This document shows positions 41,664-50,601 of a stretch of DNA of 64,000 bases, piece by piece. The stretch is from assembly GCF_022565915.1 (NCBI RefSeq), contig NZ_JAJOYX010000001.1:496001-560000 (forward strand), in the 5' to 3' direction. Each line of letters opens with the position of its first letter. Position 1 is the first letter of the stretch. Source of the stretch: Nesterenkonia sp. LB17. Its GTDB lineage: Bacteria; Actinomycetota; Actinomycetes; Actinomycetales; Micrococcaceae. The notes beneath the pieces were generated by a model that had not been told where the DNA came from, did not search any database, and saw only the letters and a program-made list of their open reading frames with translations. The translations under genes were made by a program, and so were the position numbers.

Positions 41664-41966
41664 TCAGGGGAGTGCCGTCGGATGACCCTCTTTGGCCCAT
41701 AGAGTCATTCCGCCCTCCATGCTCTCGACGGTGAATCCTGCGTCGCTCAGGGTCTGCGCCGCCGTCAGACTTCTCCGACCGCTGCGGCACACTGTGATCG
41801 TCGGCCGTGCGGAGTCGAGTTCCGGCAGCCGTGTCTGCAGCTGTCCCAGGGGTATATGGAGGGCTCCCGGGATCATGCCAGCGCTGACTTCTTCATCTTC
41901 TCGCACGTCAACGATCTGAGCCGTCTCCATCCGTTTGAACGTCATTGAAGGTGAGACTTCCTGCAT
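41664..41966 (-). CDS. Single-domain rhodanese
   Basis: 100 residues: the rhodanese CH2A region (IVDVREDEEVSAGMIPGALHIPLGQL) and the active-site loop TVCRSGRRS with catalytic Cys. It transfers sulfane sulfur between thiols or to cyanide. AGGAGG six bases before the ATG at 41964-41966 fixes the start; sequence further upstream is unrelated. It lies downstream of the MFS gene on the same strand (50-bp gap) and probably shares its transcript, as one edge of the sulfur cluster. Confidence 0.88.
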   Translation of the reverse strand: MQEVSPSMTFKRMETAQIVDVREDEEVSAGMIPGALHIPLGQLQTRLPELDSARPTITVCRSGRRSLTAAQTLSDAGFTVESMEGGMTLWAKEGHPTALP

Positions 41967-42016
41967 TGTGGCCTCCTGGGCTATGGGTCGAGGGTCGAAA
42001 CTGAATTGTGTGCAGT

Positions 42017-43381
42017 TCAATGTCTGCTCATCGAGGGCCTCTGGTGGGTCTCGTACATCCGTGCCGCCACTATCGCGGCCGAGACTGCGCTGACGGCGGC
42101 AGCCACCCACACCGCGGCAGAGAGTCCCATCAGGTCGGCCACGATCCCGCCCAGCACAGCCCCGGCTGCGTAGCCGAGATCGCGCCAGACCCTGTAGACG
42201 CCTACCGCACGACCGCGCCAGGCCGGGTGGGCGACGTCGCCGACCACGGCGAGCAGCGTCGGGTAGACCATCGCAGTGCCGGCCCCGAGCAGAGCCGTGC
42301 CCGCGGCCCAGCTGCTGAAGTCATCACCCGAGGCGATCAGCATCAGAGCCACGGCTTGCGTGGACATCCCTGCGGTGATCAGATGTTTGCGCCCGATCCG
42401 ATCCGAGAGCGCGCCGGTGACCAGCTGCCCCGCTCCCCACACGCCTGGGTACAGCGCGAAGAGTAGCCCGACCTCGCCTACCGAGAGGTCGGCCGTGGCG
42501 AAGAGCAGGGGAAAGAGACCCCAGGAGAGACCGAAGTTGAGATTATTGACCAGCCCAGCCTGGCTGGCCGAAGAGAGGGCCGGTTCCCGGAAGCTCGTCT
42601 GGACTGCGACCTGCCGGCTGGTGAGGTCTGCGTGCAGGTGATCGTGGGTGCCGTCGGCACGGGCCACATGCTCGGCCGCCTCCAAGTGGGCGTGCCCGAT
42701 AGTCTCGCGCACGAACGCACCTGAGAGCAGCAGCGCCAGGGCGGTGTAGGCGAGGCCCAACAGGAACGGTGCCGGGCGCAGCCCGAACTGCTCCGCCAGG
42801 TATCCCGCCAGCAGGGAGGTCACGGCTACAGCGCCATACCCTGCGGCTTCGTTCAGCCCCATGGCCAAGCCGCGCTTGGTGGGCCCCACGAGGTCGATCT
42901 TCATCACTACTGTGGTGGACCAGGTGAGCCCCTGGTTGATGCCCAGCAGGACATTTGCGGCGATGATCCAGCCCCAGCCCGGCGCGAGGATCAACATCAG
43001 CGGAACGGGCACGGCGAAGAGCCAGCCGATGAGAAGTACCGGCTTGCGGCCGTACCTGTCCGACAAGGTCCCGGCGAAGTAGTTGGCGATGGCCTTGGTG
43101 ACGCCGAAGGCGGCGACGTAGGTGAAGATGAACGTATAGCCCGTGAGCTCGAACTCGGATTCCGCGAGCAGCGGGAGCACCGTCTGCTGTTGGCCGACCA
43201 TGCCTCCCACCAGGGCATTCACCGCGACGAGGAGGGTGAACTGGGAGATGTTGGCGCGCAGTCCCAGCGTCGGTGGCCCTGCGGGGGACCGACGCGCGCT
43301 CATGTCTCCACCTGCGGGCTCGCCGTGAAGCGCTGGGTCCGCTCGACGGCGGCCCCAGCGTTCCTGCGAATGTGAGTGCAT
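42017..43381 (-). CDS. MFS transporter of the reactive-sulfur cluster
   Basis: 454 residues (428 if ATG at 43303 is used). Twelve helices with MFS motif A (GTLSDRYGRKPVLL, repeated in the second half as GALSDRIGRKHLI) and a central His/Asp-rich cytoplasmic loop (EAAEHVARADGTHDHLHAD). ATG at 43381 is chosen for GAAGGG with six-base spacing; the later ATG has a poorly spaced GGAG. It is divergent from the ArsR-rhodanese regulator and upstream of the rhodanese gene, so export of a sulfur compound, or of a thiol-reactive toxin, is plausible but not shown. Confidence 0.83.
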   Translation of the reverse strand: MHSHSQERWGRRRADPALHGEPAGGDMSARRSPAGPPTLGLRANISQFTLLVAVNALVGGMVGQQQTVLPLLAESEFELTGYTFIFTYVAAFGVTKAIANYFAGTLSDRYGRKPVLLIGWLFAVPVPLMLILAPGWGWIIAANVLLGINQGLTWSTTVVMKIDLVGPTKRGLAMGLNEAAGYGAVAVTSLLAGYLAEQFGLRPAPFLLGLAYTALALLLSGAFVRETIGHAHLEAAEHVARADGTHDHLHADLTSRQVAVQTSFREPALSSASQAGLVNNLNFGLSWGLFPLLFATADLSVGEVGLLFALYPGVWGAGQLVTGALSDRIGRKHLITAGMSTQAVALMLIASGDDFSSWAAGTALLGAGTAMVYPTLLAVVGDVAHPAWRGRAVGVYRVWRDLGYAAGAVLGGIVADLMGLSAAVWVAAAVSAVSAAIVAARMYETHQRPSMSRH

Positions 43382-43449: not shown

Positions 43450-43491
43450 TCCAAAGAAAACTAGAATACTGGTTGTTATGATAATCCAAAG
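43450..43491. promoter_or_regulatory. Divergent promoter/operator of the ArsR-rhodanese and MFS genes
   Basis: TCCAAAGAA occurs twice as a direct repeat, at 43450-43458 and 43483-43491, flanking an AT-rich core uncommon in this genome (CTAGAATACTGGTTGTTATG). TATGATAAT (43477-43485) can serve as a -10 for the regulator and TATTCT, read on the minus strand, for the MFS gene. This is the expected site of ArsR-type autoregulation. Confidence 0.5.
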
Positions 43492-43507
43492 AAGTCTGGA
43501 GGATCAA

Positions 43508-44233
43508 TTGGGTGATCGGCAGAAGAAGACCGTGCTGTTCGAGCAGCTGGCCCGAGTGGGGAAGGCGCTGGGCAGCGGCAAGCGCCTGGAGCTGCTGGAT
43601 CTGCTTGCCCAGGGCGAGCGAAGCGTCGAGCACCTGGCGGCTGCAGCTCAGCTGGGGCTGAGCACCACCTCGGCTCATCTGCAGGTGCTCAAGCAGGCTG
43701 GGTTGGTGACCACTCGCCGGGACGGTACCCGGGTGCACTACGGCTTGGCGGGCCTGGATGTGATCCGGCTCTATGAGCAGCTTCGAAATGTGGCCGGTGA
43801 ACGAGTCTCCGATGTTGGTCGCGCCCGGGAGGACTATCTGGCCAGCGGTCGGGCTGCCGGGGCCCCGGGTGAGCAGGACGAGGTTGGCCGGGACGAGCTT
43901 CTGGCCAGGGTTGCCGCGGGCGAGGTTACGGTGCTTGATGTACGTCCTGTCGAGGAGTATGTGGCCGCCCATATCCCAGGTGCCGTGTCCATCCCGGTGG
44001 AGGAGCTTCCTCGGCGGATCAACGAGCTGCCGTCCGGTCAGGACGTCGTTGCATACTGCCGTGGTGCCTACTGTGTGCTCGCGTACGAAGCGGTGGATCT
44101 CCTGCGTGCCGCCGGCCGGACTGCCTGGCGGCTGCATGAGGGCATGCTGGAGTGGCGCCTGACCGAGCTGCCTGTAGACACAGGCCCTGGCCTGGTGGCC
44201 TCCGGAGTGGCTGCACGCCTGCATGACCAGTGA
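43508..44233 (+). CDS. ArsR-family regulator fused to a rhodanese domain
   Basis: 241 residues. An ArsR winged helix (about 8-95: LGSGKRLELLDLLAQGERSV, LGLSTTSAHLQVLKQAGLVTTRRDG) is joined to a rhodanese domain (about 125-225: VTVLDVRPVEEYVAAHIPGA, active loop CRGAYC with Cys184 and Cys189). The ArsR half has no cysteine, so it lacks the paired thiols of SqrR/BigR; sensing is likely done by the rhodanese cysteines. TTG at 43508 is chosen for GGAGG at five-base spacing; the ATG at 43478 would lie inside the promoter region. Divergent from an MFS gene and upstream of the CstB-like operon. Confidence 0.85.
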   Translation: MGDRQKKTVLFEQLARVGKALGSGKRLELLDLLAQGERSVEHLAAAAQLGLSTTSAHLQVLKQAGLVTTRRDGTRVHYGLAGLDVIRLYEQLRNVAGERVSDVGRAREDYLASGRAAGAPGEQDEVGRDELLARVAAGEVTVLDVRPVEEYVAAHIPGAVSIPVEELPRRINELPSGQDVVAYCRGAYCVLAYEAVDLLRAAGRTAWRLHEGMLEWRLTELPVDTGPGLVASGVAARLHDQ

Positions 44234-44305: not shown

Positions 44306-44353
44306 ATACCCCAGGGGGTATGTGCGAGAGTAGTGACATACCCCCTGGGGTAT
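44306..44353. promoter_or_regulatory. Pair of CstR/CsoR-type operators
   Basis: ATACCCCAGGGGGTAT (44306-44321) and ATACCCCCTGGGGTAT (44338-44353) are 16-bp near-palindromes and exact reverse complements of each other, centred 32 bp (three helical turns) apart. They end 27 bp before the CstB-like gene. ATACCCC/GGGGTAT is the operator form known for CsoR/CstR-family repressors; the cognate gene is the last of this operon (47350). Confidence 0.85.
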
Positions 44354-44380
44354 CCATTGACTTTCAAAGGAAGGGATCTC

Positions 44381-45772
44381 ATGCTTCTTGAACGGATCTA
44401 CGACGAGGACCTGGCTCAGGCCAGCTACTTCATCGGCTGCCAGTCCAAGGGCGAGGCCATCGTCATCGATGCCCGCCGCGACAACAGCGAATACTTCGAA
44501 CTGGCCGCCCGCCACGGCATGCGCATCACCGCCGTGGCCGAGACCCACATCCACGCCGATTACCTCTCCGGCACCCGCGAGCTCGCTGCCGCCGCGAACG
44601 CGGAGGCCTACGTCTCCGGCGAGGGCGGCGATGACTGGCAGTACGGCTTCGACGCCACCCGGCTGACCCACGGGGACACCATCAAGCTGGGCAACATCAC
44701 CATTGAGGCCCGCCACACCCCCGGCCACACCCCTGAGCACCTGGTGTTCCTGGTGACCGACGGCGCCTTCAGCAACGACCCCGGCTACATGATCTCCGGA
44801 GACTTCGTCTTCGCCGGAGACCTCGGCCGCCCCGACCTCCTCGATGAAGCCGCCGGGGGAGTGGACACCCGCTTCGTGGGAGCCAAGCAGCTCTTCACCA
44901 GCCTCAAAGAGCAGTTCCTCACGCTGCCCGATCATGTGCTGGTCTACCCCGGCCACGGCTCCGGCAGCGCCTGCGGCAAGGCACTCGGCGCGCTTCCCGC
45001 CACCACGGTCGGCTACGAGCGGATCAACGCCTGGTGGTCCAAGCACCTGGCCAATGACGATGAACAGGGCTTCATCGATGAGCTGCTCGACGGCCAGCCA
45101 GACGCGCACGCCTACTTCGGTCGGATGAAGCGCGAGAACAAGGAAGGCCCCGCAGTGCTCGGCCCGCTGAGCCCCCTCGAGGCCTTCACCTCGGACCAGG
45201 TGCGCAGCGCCCTGGAAGAGGACCGCGCGATCTTCGTGGACACCCGCACCAACGACGAGGTCAAGCAGGGCACCGTCCTCGCTGCGCTGAACATCCCCGC
45301 CGGCGGCAAGTTCGCCAGCTACGGCGCCTGGGCCTACGACCCGGAGAAGGAGCAGCAGCCGCTGATCCTCCTGGCCGCGGATCAGGACCAGGCCGAGGAC
45401 ATGCGGAATCACCTGATGCGAGTGGGCATCGATGCGGTCAAGGGCTACACGGTCAGCATCGCCGACCTGCCGCAGACTCAGCCGGCCACCATCACCCCTG
45501 CCGAGCTGGAGAACTTCGAGCCTGCTCTGCTGCTGGATGTGCGCAACAAGTCCGAACACGCCGACGGCCACGTCCCCGGCTCCAAGCAGCTCAGCGCCGG
45601 CCGCGTGCTGTGGAACCAGGATCAGCTTCCTGCTTCCGGCCCGATCGTCACCTACTGCCAGTCCGGGGTCCGGAACTCGGTGGCCGCCAGCGCGCTGCGC
45701 CGGCAGGGCCATGACGTCCGCGAACTCGTCGGCAGCTATGCCGGCTGGTCAGACTGGAACAAATCACACTGA
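44381..45772 (+). CDS. cstB: CstB-like persulfide dioxygenase: MBL domain, pseudo-rhodanese, rhodanese
   Basis: 463 residues. A metallo-beta-lactamase domain (1-250) carries the iron ligands of persulfide dioxygenases: HIHAD (56-60), H116 in GHTPEH, D147 and H192. The first rhodanese-like domain (about 265-365) has LLAADQDQ where the catalytic cysteine loop belongs, so it is catalytically dead. The second (about 375-463) has the active loop YCQSGVRN with Cys426. This three-part order is that of Staphylococcus CstB, which oxidises persulfides to thiosulfate. ATG at 44381 follows GGAAGGG and lies just after the paired operators. Confidence 0.92.
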   Translation: MLLERIYDEDLAQASYFIGCQSKGEAIVIDARRDNSEYFELAARHGMRITAVAETHIHADYLSGTRELAAAANAEAYVSGEGGDDWQYGFDATRLTHGDTIKLGNITIEARHTPGHTPEHLVFLVTDGAFSNDPGYMISGDFVFAGDLGRPDLLDEAAGGVDTRFVGAKQLFTSLKEQFLTLPDHVLVYPGHGSGSACGKALGALPATTVGYERINAWWSKHLANDDEQGFIDELLDGQPDAHAYFGRMKRENKEGPAVLGPLSPLEAFTSDQVRSALEEDRAIFVDTRTNDEVKQGTVLAALNIPAGGKFASYGAWAYDPEKEQQPLILLAADQDQAEDMRNHLMRVGIDAVKGYTVSIADLPQTQPATITPAELENFEPALLLDVRNKSEHADGHVPGSKQLSAGRVLWNQDQLPASGPIVTYCQSGVRNSVAASALRRQGHDVRELVGSYAGWSDWNKSH

Positions 45773-45829
45773 TCAGACTGTTCTGGTCTCAGCAGCACCA
45801 CACACTTTTCGAGAGGAAACACCAGCCCT

Positions 45830-46477
45830 ATGGCTAACACCACCACGAGCACCCTGAACCCGACGACGACGGCGGCCGCATCCCCGATGAGCCCCACCGA
45901 ACTCGTCGAGAAGCTCCGCTCACAGAACGCCCCGCTGCTCGTCGACGTGCGCACCCCTGCGGAGCACGAGTCGCTGCGGGTCCCCGGGTCCCACAACGTC
46001 CCGCTGGATCTGCTGCAGAAGAACAAGGAGACCCTGGCCGAGCAGTTCAACGGCGATATCGTGCTGATCTGCCAGACCGGCAACCGCGCCAACCAGGCCC
46101 TGCAGCACCTGCGCGCTGCAGGAGTGGACACGGCACGGGTGCTCGAGGGCGGCGTCGTCGCCATGGAAGCGCAGCACAGCCAGCACACGCACCGTGGCCA
46201 GCAGCGCTGGGCCATGGATCGCCAGGTCCGGATGGTCGCCGGATCGCTGGTGCTCGCCGGGTTCCTCGGCGGCAAGCTGATCTCCCCAAAGGTCGGCTAC
46301 GTCGCCGGCGCGATCGGTGCGGGGCTGACCTTCTCCGCGGCGACCGATTCCTGTGCGATGGCCGCGGCGCTGAACAAGATGCCGTGGAACAAGGTGGAGG
46401 CTGACCCGACCGTGGAGGCATTCCTGGCGCAGATTCCTCGCTCCACGCAGATCCAGACTCCGGCGTCGCGGGGGTGA
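45830..46477 (+). CDS. Rhodanese with C-terminal membrane domain (YgaP-like)
   Basis: 215 residues. A Thr-rich N-terminus is followed by a rhodanese domain (about 20-115) with active Cys81 in LICQTGNRA, then two hydrophobic segments (about 132-150 and 152-172) in a DUF2892-like membrane domain as in E. coli YgaP. It places sulfurtransferase activity at the membrane, next to the exporter gene with which it overlaps by four bases (GTGA). Confidence 0.87.
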   Translation: MANTTTSTLNPTTTAAASPMSPTELVEKLRSQNAPLLVDVRTPAEHESLRVPGSHNVPLDLLQKNKETLAEQFNGDIVLICQTGNRANQALQHLRAAGVDTARVLEGGVVAMEAQHSQHTHRGQQRWAMDRQVRMVAGSLVLAGFLGGKLISPKVGYVAGAIGAGLTFSAATDSCAMAAALNKMPWNKVEADPTVEAFLAQIPRSTQIQTPASRG

Positions 46478-47316
46478 GTACCGGTCTCATCCTGGCGATG
46501 ATCCTTTCCGTCATCATCGGGATCTCGCTGGGCCTGCTCGGCGGCGGGGGTACGATCCTTGCGGTTCCGCTTCTGACCTACGTGGCGGGAATGCCGCCGA
46601 AGGAGGCGATCGCCGCCTCGATGTTCATCATCGGGGTCACCTCCGCGGTCAGCGTGGTCGCCCATGCCAAGCGCGGGAACGTGCAGTGGCGAACCGGGTT
46701 CATCTTCGGCGCCGCGGCCATGGTGGGAGCCTTCGGCGGCGGACTGTTGGGGAGCCGACTGCCCAGCGTCGTGCTGATGGTGGCCTTCGGCATCATGATG
46801 GTTGCCACGGCGTTGGCGATGATCCTGGACCGTCGCGCCAAAGCCTCTGGTCAGCCTAGGAAGAAGCTTCCGCTGGCCAAGATCCTGATCGAAGGACTCG
46901 TGGTCGGTCTGGTGACCGGCATGGTCGGTGCCGGTGGCGGGTTCCTGGTGGTTCCGGCGCTGGTGCTGCTCGGCGGGCTCTCGATGCCCGCCGCGGTGGG
47001 CACCTCGCTGCTGATCATCTCGATGAAGTCCTTCACCGGGCTCGCCGGGTATCTGACCTCGGTGAGCATCGACTGGGTCCCGGTGCTGATCATCACCGTG
47101 ATCACGGTGATCGGCGCGCTGATCGGCACCGCGTTCGGCAAGCACGTCCCAGAGAAGGCGCTGAAGAAGGCCTTCGGATATCTGGTGTTGGCCATGGGCG
47201 TGGTGGTGTTCCTCCAGGAGCTGCCGCTGGCCTACGGCCTGGGCGCCGCAGCGGCCATCGTGGTGCTGCTCGGGACCCTGCTGTACCGCCGGCGCGGAGA
47301 TCAGCTGGCAACATAG
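46474..47316 (+). CDS. tauE: TauE/SafE-family sulfite/organosulfur exporter
   Basis: 280 residues, eight hydrophobic segments in two repeats (GISLGLLGGGGTILAVPLLTY in pieces; GLVTGMVGAGGGFLVVPALV). GTG start overlaps the preceding stop. In CstR-controlled operons a TauE homologue accompanies cstA/cstB and is thought to export sulfite or thiosulfate formed by persulfide oxidation; the same role is inferred here. It shares family, not close sequence, with the transporter at 20209. Confidence 0.9.
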   Translation: MSTGLILAMILSVIIGISLGLLGGGGTILAVPLLTYVAGMPPKEAIAASMFIIGVTSAVSVVAHAKRGNVQWRTGFIFGAAAMVGAFGGGLLGSRLPSVVLMVAFGIMMVATALAMILDRRAKASGQPRKKLPLAKILIEGLVVGLVTGMVGAGGGFLVVPALVLLGGLSMPAAVGTSLLIISMKSFTGLAGYLTSVSIDWVPVLIITVITVIGALIGTAFGKHVPEKALKKAFGYLVLAMGVVVFLQELPLAYGLGAAAAIVVLLGTLLYRRRGDQLAT

Positions 47317-47349
47317 AGACGAATCAGTGCGAGAAACAGGGAGAGAATC

Positions 47350-47628
47350 ATGAGAGAAGCCGATCCGGAGACACAGCGCAAGATCGTGAACCGCCTGAAG
47401 CGGGCCCGCGGCCAGCTGGACTCGGTGATCAACGCCGTGGAGAACGGCGGCAGCTGCCGCGACGTGGTCACCCAGCTCGCGGCGGTGTCCACCGCCCTGG
47501 ACCGCGCCGGGTTCAGCGTGGTCTCCTCGGCGATGCAGTTCTGCGTCACCGACCCTGAGCGGGCGGCGGAGACCGAGGACGGGTTGACCGTGGAGGAGCT
47601 CGAGAAGCTCTTCCTCTCGCTCTCCTGA
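47350..47628 (+). CDS. cstR: CsoR-family repressor, CstR (persulfide-sensing) type
   Basis: 92 residues, an all-helical CsoR-fold protein (RKIVNRLKRARGQLDSVINAVENG, in pieces). Copper-sensing CsoR uses Cys36-His61-Cys65; here Cys36 and Cys65 are kept but position 61 is alanine. Two cysteines without the histidine are the mark of CstR, which forms di- to tetrasulfide links between them on exposure to sulfane sulfur and leaves the DNA. It is the last gene of the operon headed by the paired operators, so it should repress its own transcript. Confidence 0.9.
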   Translation: MREADPETQRKIVNRLKRARGQLDSVINAVENGGSCRDVVTQLAAVSTALDRAGFSVVSSAMQFCVTDPERAAETEDGLTVEELEKLFLSLS

Positions 47629-47719
47629 GCTGAGCAGGCCGGGGCTGCGGGTCAGGGCAGCGCCACCGAGGTGCTTCCGGCTGCATGACGCCGGCCGTGC
47701 TCACCGCCGTGCATACATT

Positions 47720-47754
47720 CGAAAGGCCCAGCCGCACATCGGCTGGGCCTTTCG
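47720..47754 (+). terminator. Terminator of the cstB-cstR operon
   Basis: CGAAAGGCCCAGCCG (47720-47734) and CGGCTGGGCCTTTCG (47740-47754) form a perfect 15-bp stem with a CACAT loop; the GAAA/TTTC ends give the usual A-rich/T-rich flanks within the stem itself, making it usable in both directions. Confidence 0.85.
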
Positions 47755-47906: not shown

Positions 47907-48809
47907 ATGACATTGCTGGTCATGGGATCGGTGAACCGCGACATCACCGCGCGGCTGCCTGAGTTCCCACAGCCCGGAGAGACCCTGCTGGCCACCGCGT
48001 CGCAGACCGCCACCGGGGGCAAGAGTGCGAACCAGGCAGTGGCCGCAGCGCTGGTCGGCGCCGAGGCGCAGCTGATCGCTCGCTGCGGGTCCGACGCCGC
48101 CGGGGCCGAAGCGGTGAACGCGCTGCGCGAGGCAGGGGTTCACGTCGACGCCGTCGCTCCGGGCCGCGGCGCCCAGGGGATGGCCTTCATCACCGTGCGC
48201 GCTGACGGGGAGAACACCATCGTGGTGGTCCCCGGGGCCAACGCGGAACTCCAAGCCCAGGACTGCCCGGAAGCGCTGCTGGACCAGGCCGACTGGATCC
48301 TGCTCAGCCTGGAGGTCCCGCTGGACACCGTCCTGGAGGTGGCTGCCCGCGCCCGCGCGGCCGGGACAAACGTGGCGCTGAACGCCTCACCACTGTCTGA
48401 GCAGACGTTGGATCTCCGCCACGTGGACCTGGTGATCGTCAATGAAGGTGAGGCCGACCATCTGCTGGCGGATGCCGGCGCGGCCCACCGTCACTCGCAG
48501 GCCCCGACACCCGAAGACCCGACCGGCGCGCTGGGCATCGAGACCCTCATCGTCACGCGCGGAGCAGCCGGGGCGAGCATCCATGAATCTGGCTTGGAAC
48601 CGGTGCATGTGCCCAGCGTCCAGGTGCAGGCAGTCGACACCAGCGGCGCCGGGGACGCCTTCGCCGGCGCCCTGCTCGGACGGCTGACCTGCGGAGACAG
48701 TATGAAGACGGCGGCGACCATCGCCTCGAGGTTCGCCGCCGCCACGACCACCCGGCTCGGCGCCCAGGCCTCCTACCCGCGGGACTTCACAATCGCGACA
48801 GATTCGTGA
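47907..48809 (+). CDS. PfkB-family carbohydrate kinase, ribokinase-like
   Basis: 300 residues. The two PfkB signatures are present: GGKSANQAVAAALVGAEAQL near the N-terminus and DTSGAGDAFAGALLGRL with the catalytic Asp near residue 250, plus the anion-hole GAGD. VMGSVNRDITARL is the ribokinase-type start. It phosphorylates ribose or a related sugar at the expense of ATP. AGGAGAGG precedes the ATG at 47907. No sugar transporter is adjacent. Its end overlaps the minus-strand oxidoreductase gene by 23 bp. Confidence 0.87.
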   Translation: MTLLVMGSVNRDITARLPEFPQPGETLLATASQTATGGKSANQAVAAALVGAEAQLIARCGSDAAGAEAVNALREAGVHVDAVAPGRGAQGMAFITVRADGENTIVVVPGANAELQAQDCPEALLDQADWILLSLEVPLDTVLEVAARARAAGTNVALNASPLSEQTLDLRHVDLVIVNEGEADHLLADAGAAHRHSQAPTPEDPTGALGIETLIVTRGAAGASIHESGLEPVHVPSVQVQAVDTSGAGDAFAGALLGRLTCGDSMKTAATIASRFAAATTTRLGAQASYPRDFTIATDS

Positions 48810-50451
48810 CCGCGGGCCCTTCCAGAAGCTCCCCGTCGGCGGCGAAGCGTGAGCCGTGCAGCGGGCAGTCCCAGGACAGGGCCGCGTCGTTCCACTTCAG
48901 CACCCCACCCAGGTGGGGGCAGATCGCGGAGACCTTGCACGTCTGACCGTCCACGGTGGAGACCCCGACAGGTTTCCCATGGTCGCGACCCACATTGGCC
49001 TCGCCCTCCTCGGGGGTGTCCTCGGGCAGCGAGCGCAGCTCGGCGCCCACCCAGCCGGCCACCAGGGTCCCGCCCACCTCCAGGTTGTCCTTGATCCCGG
49101 TGAACACGTCCGAAGGCGTGACCATCCGTTTGCTCAGCGTCTCGGCCCAGGCCATGTGCCCGCCGAGGATCTGCGCCGAGATGGCCAGCGCCGCGGCCAC
49201 CGCGTTGCTCATGCCCCATTTGTTGTACCCGGTGGCCAGATAGATCCTTCCGCCGCCGCGGGGCAGCGCGCCGAAGAACGGGACGTATTGCGCGGTGCGG
49301 TAGTCCTGGGCGGACCACACGTGGGTGCGCCTCGCGCCGGGGAAATGGGCCTGCGCCCAGGCCTCGAGATCATCCACGGCGGCGCGCTCGGAGGGTGAAC
49401 GGCCCACTCCGTGATCGTTGCCGCCGATCAGCAGCAGCTCCTCACCGTTCACCGGGACCGTGCGCAGGGTTCGGCCAGGGGTGTCGGCACTGAGATACAT
49501 TCCCTTCGGGATGCTGACCGGAGCGCCGGGCACCCGATAGGTCATCGCGTAGGAGCGGTTGGGTTTGAGCTTGGCGAAATAGCCGCCGCGATCCAGGACC
49601 GGGACCCCGGTGGCGAGCATCAGCCGCGCCGCGGTCACCTGACCCTGGGAGGTCTCCACGGTCAGCGGCGCCTCATCCACTGCCGGGTCCAGAGGGGAGC
49701 CTTCGGTGTCGTCCTCCACCGAGGCCCGGGGAGTTCCCGTACGGGATTTCGCACCGGCGCCCCCGGCAGTGTCGGATGCGTCACCAGCCGCGGAGCCGTT
49801 GGAGGTCGCCCCGGTGACCCTGACCCCTTCGATGAGTTCCCCGCCGCGTTGACGGAGCTCCTCGGCCAGGGCGGCGAGGACCTCCATGGGGTGGAACTGA
49901 GTCTGCTTCGCCAGTGCCACGGCGCCGCTGACCTCGAACGGCAGATCGGTCTGATCGGTCCAGGTCACCGGCAACCCAGCCTCCTGGCAGGCGGCGAACT
50001 CCTCCTGCACCGAGGAGAGTCCGGATTCTGTGGTGGCGTAGGTGTAGGCGGTGCGATGCTGATAGGGCACCCCGTGTTCCTGCATATAGCGGACCAGCCA
50101 GGAGACGCCCTCATCGTTGCCGTCCACATACGCCTGCAGCACCTCAGCGGAGTGGTGCCTGCGGATGCTGGAGAGCGTGGTGCCCTGCAGCAGAGAGAGC
50201 TTCGCGGTGGTGTTGCCGGTGGCGACAACCCCGACTGCTCGGGCTTCCAGCACCGCCACCTTATGCCCTGCCCGGGCCAGCAGCACCGCCGTGGTCAGAC
50301 CGGTCAGGCCCGCTCCGGCGACGACGGTGTCATAGTGCGCGCCCTCGGTGAAGGAGTCGCTGGGGATGGACTCCGGGGAGTAGGTGTCCAGCCAGACCGA
50401 GCGGTGGGTGTTCGAGGGCTCATAGGCGGTGTGCGGGCTCTGTGAGTTCAC
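48787..50451 (-). CDS. FAD-dependent oxidoreductase with C-terminal Rieske domain
   Basis: 554 residues. A DAO-type flavoprotein domain (about 35-430) has the GxGxxG dinucleotide motif DTVVAGAGLTGLTTAVLL and GNTTAKLSLLQGT; the C-terminal 90 residues are a Rieske [2Fe-2S] domain with CPHLGG and CPLHGSRF (C-x-H ... C-x2-H). An Ala/Ser/Gly/Asp-rich insert interrupts the flavin domain (about 235-275). Electrons probably pass between flavin and Rieske centre; substrate unknown. GTG at 50451 is preceded by GAAGGAC and chosen over a longer frame without a ribosome site. Confidence 0.87.
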   Translation of the reverse strand: MNSQSPHTAYEPSNTHRSVWLDTYSPESIPSDSFTEGAHYDTVVAGAGLTGLTTAVLLARAGHKVAVLEARAVGVVATGNTTAKLSLLQGTTLSSIRRHHSAEVLQAYVDGNDEGVSWLVRYMQEHGVPYQHRTAYTYATTESGLSSVQEEFAACQEAGLPVTWTDQTDLPFEVSGAVALAKQTQFHPMEVLAALAEELRQRGGELIEGVRVTGATSNGSAAGDASDTAGGAGAKSRTGTPRASVEDDTEGSPLDPAVDEAPLTVETSQGQVTAARLMLATGVPVLDRGGYFAKLKPNRSYAMTYRVPGAPVSIPKGMYLSADTPGRTLRTVPVNGEELLLIGGNDHGVGRSPSERAAVDDLEAWAQAHFPGARRTHVWSAQDYRTAQYVPFFGALPRGGGRIYLATGYNKWGMSNAVAAALAISAQILGGHMAWAETLSKRMVTPSDVFTGIKDNLEVGGTLVAGWVGAELRSLPEDTPEEGEANVGRDHGKPVGVSTVDGQTCKVSAICPHLGGVLKWNDAALSWDCPLHGSRFAADGELLEGPAVTNLSRL

Positions 50452-50601
50452 AGGTCGTCCTTCCTCAGGCTGCTGCCGGTGGCCGGGAGCGGAGTCCCGG
50501 CGATGGTCCTCATCCTGGTGGCTGGAGCTGGGAGTATCCAGCATTCACGCCCGTACCCTCCGCCTGTTCATCCCGCCCGAATCACCTGCAGGGAGTCGGG
50601 A

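Follow-up and report, generated by a model that had tools for sequence, protein, structure and literature searches.

A probable sulfane-sulfur homeostasis operon in Nesterenkonia and an unlinked small Cys/His-rich protein gene likely to share its regulation

We describe here a four-gene operon in a 64,000-nucleotide stretch of DNA from Nesterenkonia sp. LB17 (contig NZ_JAJOYX010000001.1, positions 496,001 to 560,000; hereafter the window, numbered from its first letter), together with a small gene elsewhere in the 2.82 Mb host genome (Nesterenkonia, Micrococcaceae). The operon encodes a putative persulfide dioxygenase (PDO), a membrane rhodanese, a TauE-family exporter and a CsoR-family repressor. 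We consider it very probable that these genes form a circuit for sulfane-sulfur homeostasis like the one known from Streptomyces coelicolor, with a regulon that includes the unlinked gene for a 53-residue Cys/His-rich protein. An earlier note, made from the sequence of the window alone, had read the locus as a persulfide operon and as the first actinobacterial case. The kind holds, on gene content, operators, residues and the S. coelicolor counterpart; the priority does not, and the recurrence of the operator outside the window goes beyond what that note had noticed.

The operon and its known counterparts

The operon, with its open reading frames (ORFs) and flanking elements, is composed as follows.

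44306..44321, no strand: operator 1, ATACCCCAGGGGGTAT, found by pattern search; forms an inverted repeat with operator 2
44338..44353, no strand: operator 2, ATACCCCCTGGGGTAT, 32 bp from operator 1, found by pattern search; inverted repeat
44381..45772, plus strand: CstB-like (type III) PDO with a metallo-beta-lactamase (MBL) domain, a Cys-less rhodanese-like domain and an active-type rhodanese domain (Cys426), from Pfam and homologue alignments
45830..46477, plus strand: rhodanese (Cys81) with a YgaP-like membrane domain, from Pfam and alignments
46474..47316, plus strand: TauE/SafE-family exporter with a GTG start, from the ORF list and Pfam
47350..47628, plus strand: CsoR-family repressor of the CstR/ScCsoR type (C36, A61, C65), from Pfam and alignments
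47720..47754, plus strand: 15-bp hairpin downstream of the operon, a probable terminator (folding z -6.0)

The order of operators, enzyme, rhodanese, TauE and repressor, as first proposed in the earlier note, is confirmed by the ORFs, Pfam and the operator search, and the TauE start overlaps the rhodanese stop by 4 bp. The same four proteins have been described in S. coelicolor by Lu et al. 2020 (PMC7533328, here and below from the accessible part of its text): a CsoR-like two-Cys repressor (ScCsoR), a type III PDO, a rhodanese and TauE. ScCsoR was shown to bind two ATACCn6GGTAT sites in front of Scpdo and to come off the DNA with hydrogen polysulfide; pdo, tauE and rhod are under its control, and derepression was demonstrated. 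The S. coelicolor locus (SCO0618-0621) and the present one are alike in the four proteins, the two ATACCn6GGTAT sites before pdo and the two-Cys repressor, and sqr and cstA are not among the four genes described; here too pdo, tauE, a rhodanese and a CsoR-like regulator stand together under an N6 operator. The same study reports that of 1977 Streptomyces genomes 1248 carry pdo, 773 of these with a csoR-like gene close to it, and that 16 selected Streptomyces have comparable circuits. The view that the described systems are all staphylococcal or enterococcal was therefore mistaken. The operon adds an ordinary example to a kind already known, and it is not the first such operon in actinobacteria because its S. 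coelicolor counterpart was published in 2020 (PMC7533328).

The two loci differ in that the Nesterenkonia genes run colinearly in a single operon that ends with the repressor; in S. coelicolor a further site lies between the csoR and rhod genes (PMC7533328). The YgaP-like membrane domain on the Nesterenkonia rhodanese may be another difference. In Nesterenkonia a third operator also precedes the gene of the small Cys-rich protein, of which there is no mention in the accessible text of the S. coelicolor paper (PMC7533328).

Among the best 80 enzyme relatives, which were the ones kept, the stretch fetched around each gene contains the repressor at 54 loci, a rhodanese at 62, TauE at 69 and all of them at 48; these counts are lower bounds since contig ends cut some of the stretches. 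Using a presence threshold of our own choosing (E <= 1e-15), strong matches to the repressor are found in 62 of 98 genomes drawn as relatives, and the repressor is present in 24 of 30 genomes of the same genus. The operon itself points to the S. coelicolor circuit being a widespread module in actinobacteria, seen here in the Micrococcaceae. In one same-genus genome (G017, 62% complete) the enzyme and repressor matches are fragmented, some with stops (C1:831205-832559, C1:35485-35756, C1:2696460-2696731), reflecting either decay or sequencing error. No paper treating Nesterenkonia and persulfide together was found in the literature searched, which left out most subscription papers.

The enzyme matches the Pfam families Lactamase_B and, at its C-terminus, Rhodanese. 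We place its start at the ATG at 44381, as the same Met start is found in six aligned homologues; an in-frame GTG at 44333 falls between the two operators. H56, H58, D60, H112, D141 and H192 are present in all 80 homologues, and we take these to be the metal-site positions, with ligand roles as in ETHE1-type enzymes. Cys426 of the C-terminal rhodanese domain is likewise invariant (80/80), and the first rhodanese-like domain (residues 266-362) is Cys-less in the window enzyme and in 78 of the 80 homologues, so that the earlier description of one dead and one active rhodanese domain is sustained at the sequence level. With the metal ligands of a PDO and an inactive followed by an active rhodanese domain, the protein appears to have the architecture of CstB and the type III PDOs. 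By sequence, its nearest relatives of solved structure are 3tp9 (E 2.8e-102) and 3r2u (E 2.7e-83), both deposited as MBL(-rhodanese) proteins. Identity is 39% to Staphylococcus cohnii CstB (over 465 alignment columns) and 95% to the N. aurantiaca enzyme. The second gene product matches Rhodanese and YgaP-like_TM, with Cys81 conserved in 62 of 62 alignments, and the exporter matches TauE with 178.7 bits.

The staphylococcal operon, which runs cstR-cstA-cstB-sqr, was reportedly described by Luebke in 2014. Judged from an annotated copy (L178), it resembles the Nesterenkonia operon in its CsoR-family dithiol repressor and three-domain CstB enzyme; it differs in gene order and in possessing sqr and TusA/CstA, neither of which was found here. 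In this genome a staphylococcal type II SQR query, which has strong matches in two other genomes (G064, E 4e-104; G068, E 8e-98), gives no full-length match, the best covering 55 residues at 18.9 bits; no separate query was made for other SQR types. The CstA query yields four weak partial matches (best 33.6 bits), three of them rhodanese genes of the window and the fourth on contig C5, and TusA has no match in the genome, against 11 positives among 14 control genomes. The absence of sqr and cstA nearby, as noted earlier, thus extends genome-wide as far as these queries reach, and the regulon lacks the cstA and sqr of the staphylococcal one. Since neither sqr nor cstA was found, the circuit would clear sulfane sulfur rather than oxidise H2S via the quinone pool. 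TauE belongs to the Staphylococcus aureus regulon as well, in which a single directly regulated operon has been inferred (PMC5480029, accessible text); in Nesterenkonia there are probably two units. CsoR-family repressors of sulfur oxidation genes are also known outside staphylococci from the accessible texts on Bacillus licheniformis YrkD (PMC9918477) and Thermus thermophilus TTHA1953 (PMC10318464), with gene sets unlike the present one (sqr, tusA, dsrE and nreBC in the former, the Sox pathway in the latter).

Repressor and operators

The repressor matches the Pfam family Trns_repr_metal (76.6 bits). Across 54 homologue alignments, taken from the 80 enzyme loci and spanning at least 60 columns at no less than 40% identity, C36 and C65 are each conserved in 54 of 54. 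Position 61, the His position of CsoR, is Ala in the window protein and A, G or S, never His, in all 54. The earlier reading of these positions (Cys36, Cys65, and Ala at the CsoR His position) was correct. The Cys-His-Cys metal site of copper CsoR is not present, and the two conserved Cys residues in the absence of a metal-ligand His at position 61 assign the protein, as judged from its residues, to the CstR/ScCsoR sensor type.

Membership of the CsoR/RcnR/FrmR Pfam family could instead indicate a metal (copper) or formaldehyde sensor controlling a metal or aldehyde response, and the only NCBIfam models matched by the repressor are FrmR and RicR, both below cut-off. We regard this as very improbable, and reject a copper or formaldehyde operon on residue 61, on partners comprising a PDO, a rhodanese and TauE, and on the separate CsoR gene elsewhere. 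This gene, encoding the one other PF02583 (CsoR-family) protein of the genome, stands opposite genes that by eye resemble copZ and copA, with a 17-bp palindrome between them, and is presumably of copper type.

The predicted operators of the CstR-type repressor are two 16-bp palindromes, ATACCCCNNGGGGTAT, which together form a 21-bp inverted repeat. In its strict form the pattern has three sites in the genome, against none for the reversed pattern (2.8 Mb), which is more than chance; two precede the operon and the third is at C4:245940-245955. All seven Nesterenkonia enzyme loci have two sites, 32-34 bp apart. Across the 80 enzyme loci a site lies within 120 bp upstream of the enzyme in 65, with at least two sites in 23 and none for the reversed control. 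The strict site also tracks the repressor within the genus, being present in 24 of 24 genomes with a CstR-type repressor and in none of the six without; five of these six have a weaker CsoR-family match and one has none, and two of the six are only 65% and 82% complete.

From this we propose the following mechanism. The reduced repressor would occupy the two operators and block the promoter. Persulfide or polysulfide would react with Cys36, helped by Cys65, taking the repressor off the DNA and allowing the four genes to be made. Low-molecular-weight persulfide would then be oxidised to sulfite by the MBL enzyme, whose rhodanese domain would, like the membrane rhodanese, shift sulfane sulfur; TauE would export the sulfite, and newly made repressor would close the loop. 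The same repressor would control the unlinked gene of the 53-residue protein on C4. The polysulfide bridge between Cys36 and Cys65 that had been expected may be wrong here, because in the S. coelicolor relative Cys37 alone was persulfidated and a CstR-type bridge was not seen, according to the accessible text (PMC7533328).

The small Cys/His-rich protein

The third strict site lies 36 bp before the ATG of a 53-codon ORF (G000:C4:245745-245903, minus strand) that is unlinked to the operon and preceded by a GGAG ribosome-site motif. Several lines of evidence connect this gene to the repressor. The small protein has matches in 49 of the 98 relatives (the weakest at 22.8 bits), distributed as 44 of the 62 repressor-bearing genomes and five of the 36 repressor-free ones (Fisher p 6e-8, uncorrected for kinship). 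In 15 of the 30 best copies, taken one per genome, an operator lies within 110 bp upstream, and by eye 12 more adjoin repressor, enzyme, TauE or rhodanese genes or follow a more distant site. By its motif the small gene is also found in 22 of the 80 named enzyme loci (with a split match in addition at L088), 16 of the 22 with a site within 110 bp upstream. The arrangements vary: at L107, L109, L112 and L142 the small gene is separate from pdo and has a site to itself 34-38 bp upstream, at L101 the site is 59 bp upstream and pdo follows, and at L118, L136 and L143 the small gene follows the repressor gene and has no site of its own. Matches occur in 78 plasmid records, four stretches of which were fetched; the small gene directly follows the regulator on the Curtobacterium and Microbacterium plasmids, and lies ~2 kb from it in Clavibacter and ~3 kb in Nocardia.

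A composite pattern, consisting of the operator, 20-50 bp and codons for M-C-x4-C-x2-C, was found in 31 of the 248 order genomes, spread over 20 of 85 genera, and in 4 of 396 genomes of the phylum, and in none of the reversed controls; the phylum draw is mostly of distant lineages and its 4/396 says little about frequency. As the hits in G000 and G060 come up in both draws, the distinct hits number 36, of which 33 were fetched: all 33 have the GCGxH core and 32 a ribosome-site-like motif. These results indicate that the small gene probably extends the CstR regulon beyond the operon.

The third operator and its ORF might instead be coincidental, or be served by the copper CsoR, in which case the regulon would be the operon alone. 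CsoR-family operators do resemble one another, and half of the repressor-bearing genomes of the genus have no small gene. We nonetheless consider this unlikely, given the recurrence of the composite pattern in the order with empty controls, the finding that every fetched hit is a true member, and the fact that other genomes have the small gene next to repressor or enzyme genes. A role for the copper CsoR is further opposed by the lack of strict sites in all six same-genus genomes without a CstR-type repressor, and by the 17-bp length of the site at the copper-type genes.

Some observations speak against the circuit and its extension to the small gene. The NCBIfam models matched by the four operon proteins all score below cut-off, identity between the repressor and S. 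cohnii CstR is only 32% (65 residues), and 15 of the 80 enzyme loci have no operator site. Three of the 30 best small-gene copies (L169, L172, L173) have neither a site nor a neighbour of the above kinds within ~1.5 kb. Of the 16 sites upstream of small genes at enzyme loci, 11 lie where a divergent pdo also has its promoter and need not act on the small gene. The five repressor-free genomes with a match (one very weak, at 22.8 bits) also run counter, as does the absence of the small gene from 12 of the 24 same-genus genomes with the repressor, which makes it an accessory part of the regulon.

The small protein reads MCRAVTCKTCGKTTWAGCGQHVDQVMRGV...CPGH...FFSRLFGR, with the motif MCx4Cx2C...TWxGCGxH...C. 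Twelve positions are invariant among 18 aligned members (C2, C7, C10, K12, T14, W15, G17, C18, G19, H21, V25, C35), and with a dN/dS of 0.13 over 36 pairs of nine Nesterenkonia copies the gene is under purifying selection. Pfam (best E 0.36), NCBIfam and PHROGs contain no family that the protein matches. A profile search of PDB sequences gives no relative (best E 0.13), and Foldseek of its model against the PDB gives nothing at E <=0.001 (best E 6.8). The literature search described above likewise returned no pointer to the protein and no occurrence of the string GCGQH. In the AlphaFold2 model (mean pLDDT 68, ~78 over residues 1-30) two short strands flank the CxxC and are followed by a helix beginning at GCGxH. 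Treble-clef zinc sites are built of a hairpin plus helix in such an arrangement.

Divergent members are also seen. A branch with KPTW.GCG.H.E.AL.GV (L207, L208, L209, L214, L172) is operator-preceded in four of five cases and includes two proteins of only 39 residues, and another with MCSP....C and SGCGMH (L193, L215, L216) has only 37-38 residues, no C-terminal tail and an operator upstream. A phage record filed as 'Bacteriophage sp.' (MT835623.1, 19139-19300) encodes a small Cys-rich protein with 74% identity, and may be misfiled bacterial or mobile DNA.

The protein is perhaps a zinc- or persulfide-binding mini-protein, an idea made attractive by the zinc-limitation response that sulfide provokes in S. 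aureus (PMC5480029, accessible text). Our tentative proposal, which we rate below even, is that members of this undescribed family of 37-66 residue Cys/His-rich proteins, directly repressed by the CstR-type regulator, bind zinc via CxxC and GCGxH, buffer persulfide or zinc, and tie sulfur stress to zinc supply. Somewhat less likely still, the protein could be co-regulated with the operon and yet be a peptide that binds zinc in a general role, with no part in sulfur chemistry. The Cys/His spacing and the modelled hairpin plus helix, which in our reading resemble a zinc-binding treble clef, would fit such a peptide, as would the members in genomes without the repressor; the regulon link itself argues against it.

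Surroundings of the operon and significance

Four rhodanese-domain genes, those of the operon included, lie within 5 kb. Directly upstream of the operon and in the same direction is an ArsR-type regulator fused to a rhodanese domain (Pfam; 43478-44233, plus strand). We considered this gene as part of the operon and rejected it, as it is unmatched in the seven Nesterenkonia enzyme loci (two with <2 kb upstream). A further single-domain rhodanese (Pfam; 41664-42110, minus strand) adjoins a minus-strand ORF reaching to ~43.3 kb that by eye resembles an MFS transporter, and a DAO FAD-dependent oxidoreductase fused to a Rieske domain (Pfam) is encoded at 48787-50544 on the minus strand. A scan for sigma-70-type promoters, covering that type only, found none between 44200 and 47900. 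The terminator postulated in the earlier note coincides with a strong hairpin (47720-47754; -31.7 kcal/mol for the folded stretch, z -6.0). This hairpin has no separate U-tract and is absent from the output of an intrinsic-terminator scan, though on its folding a terminator seems likely.

The extension of the regulon weighs more than the operon itself. Operator, neighbourhood, co-occurrence and selection link a family without a match in Pfam, NCBIfam or PHROGs to persulfide sensing, in 20 of 85 genera of one order, and what was an anonymous small ORF becomes a testable part of sulfur stress physiology.

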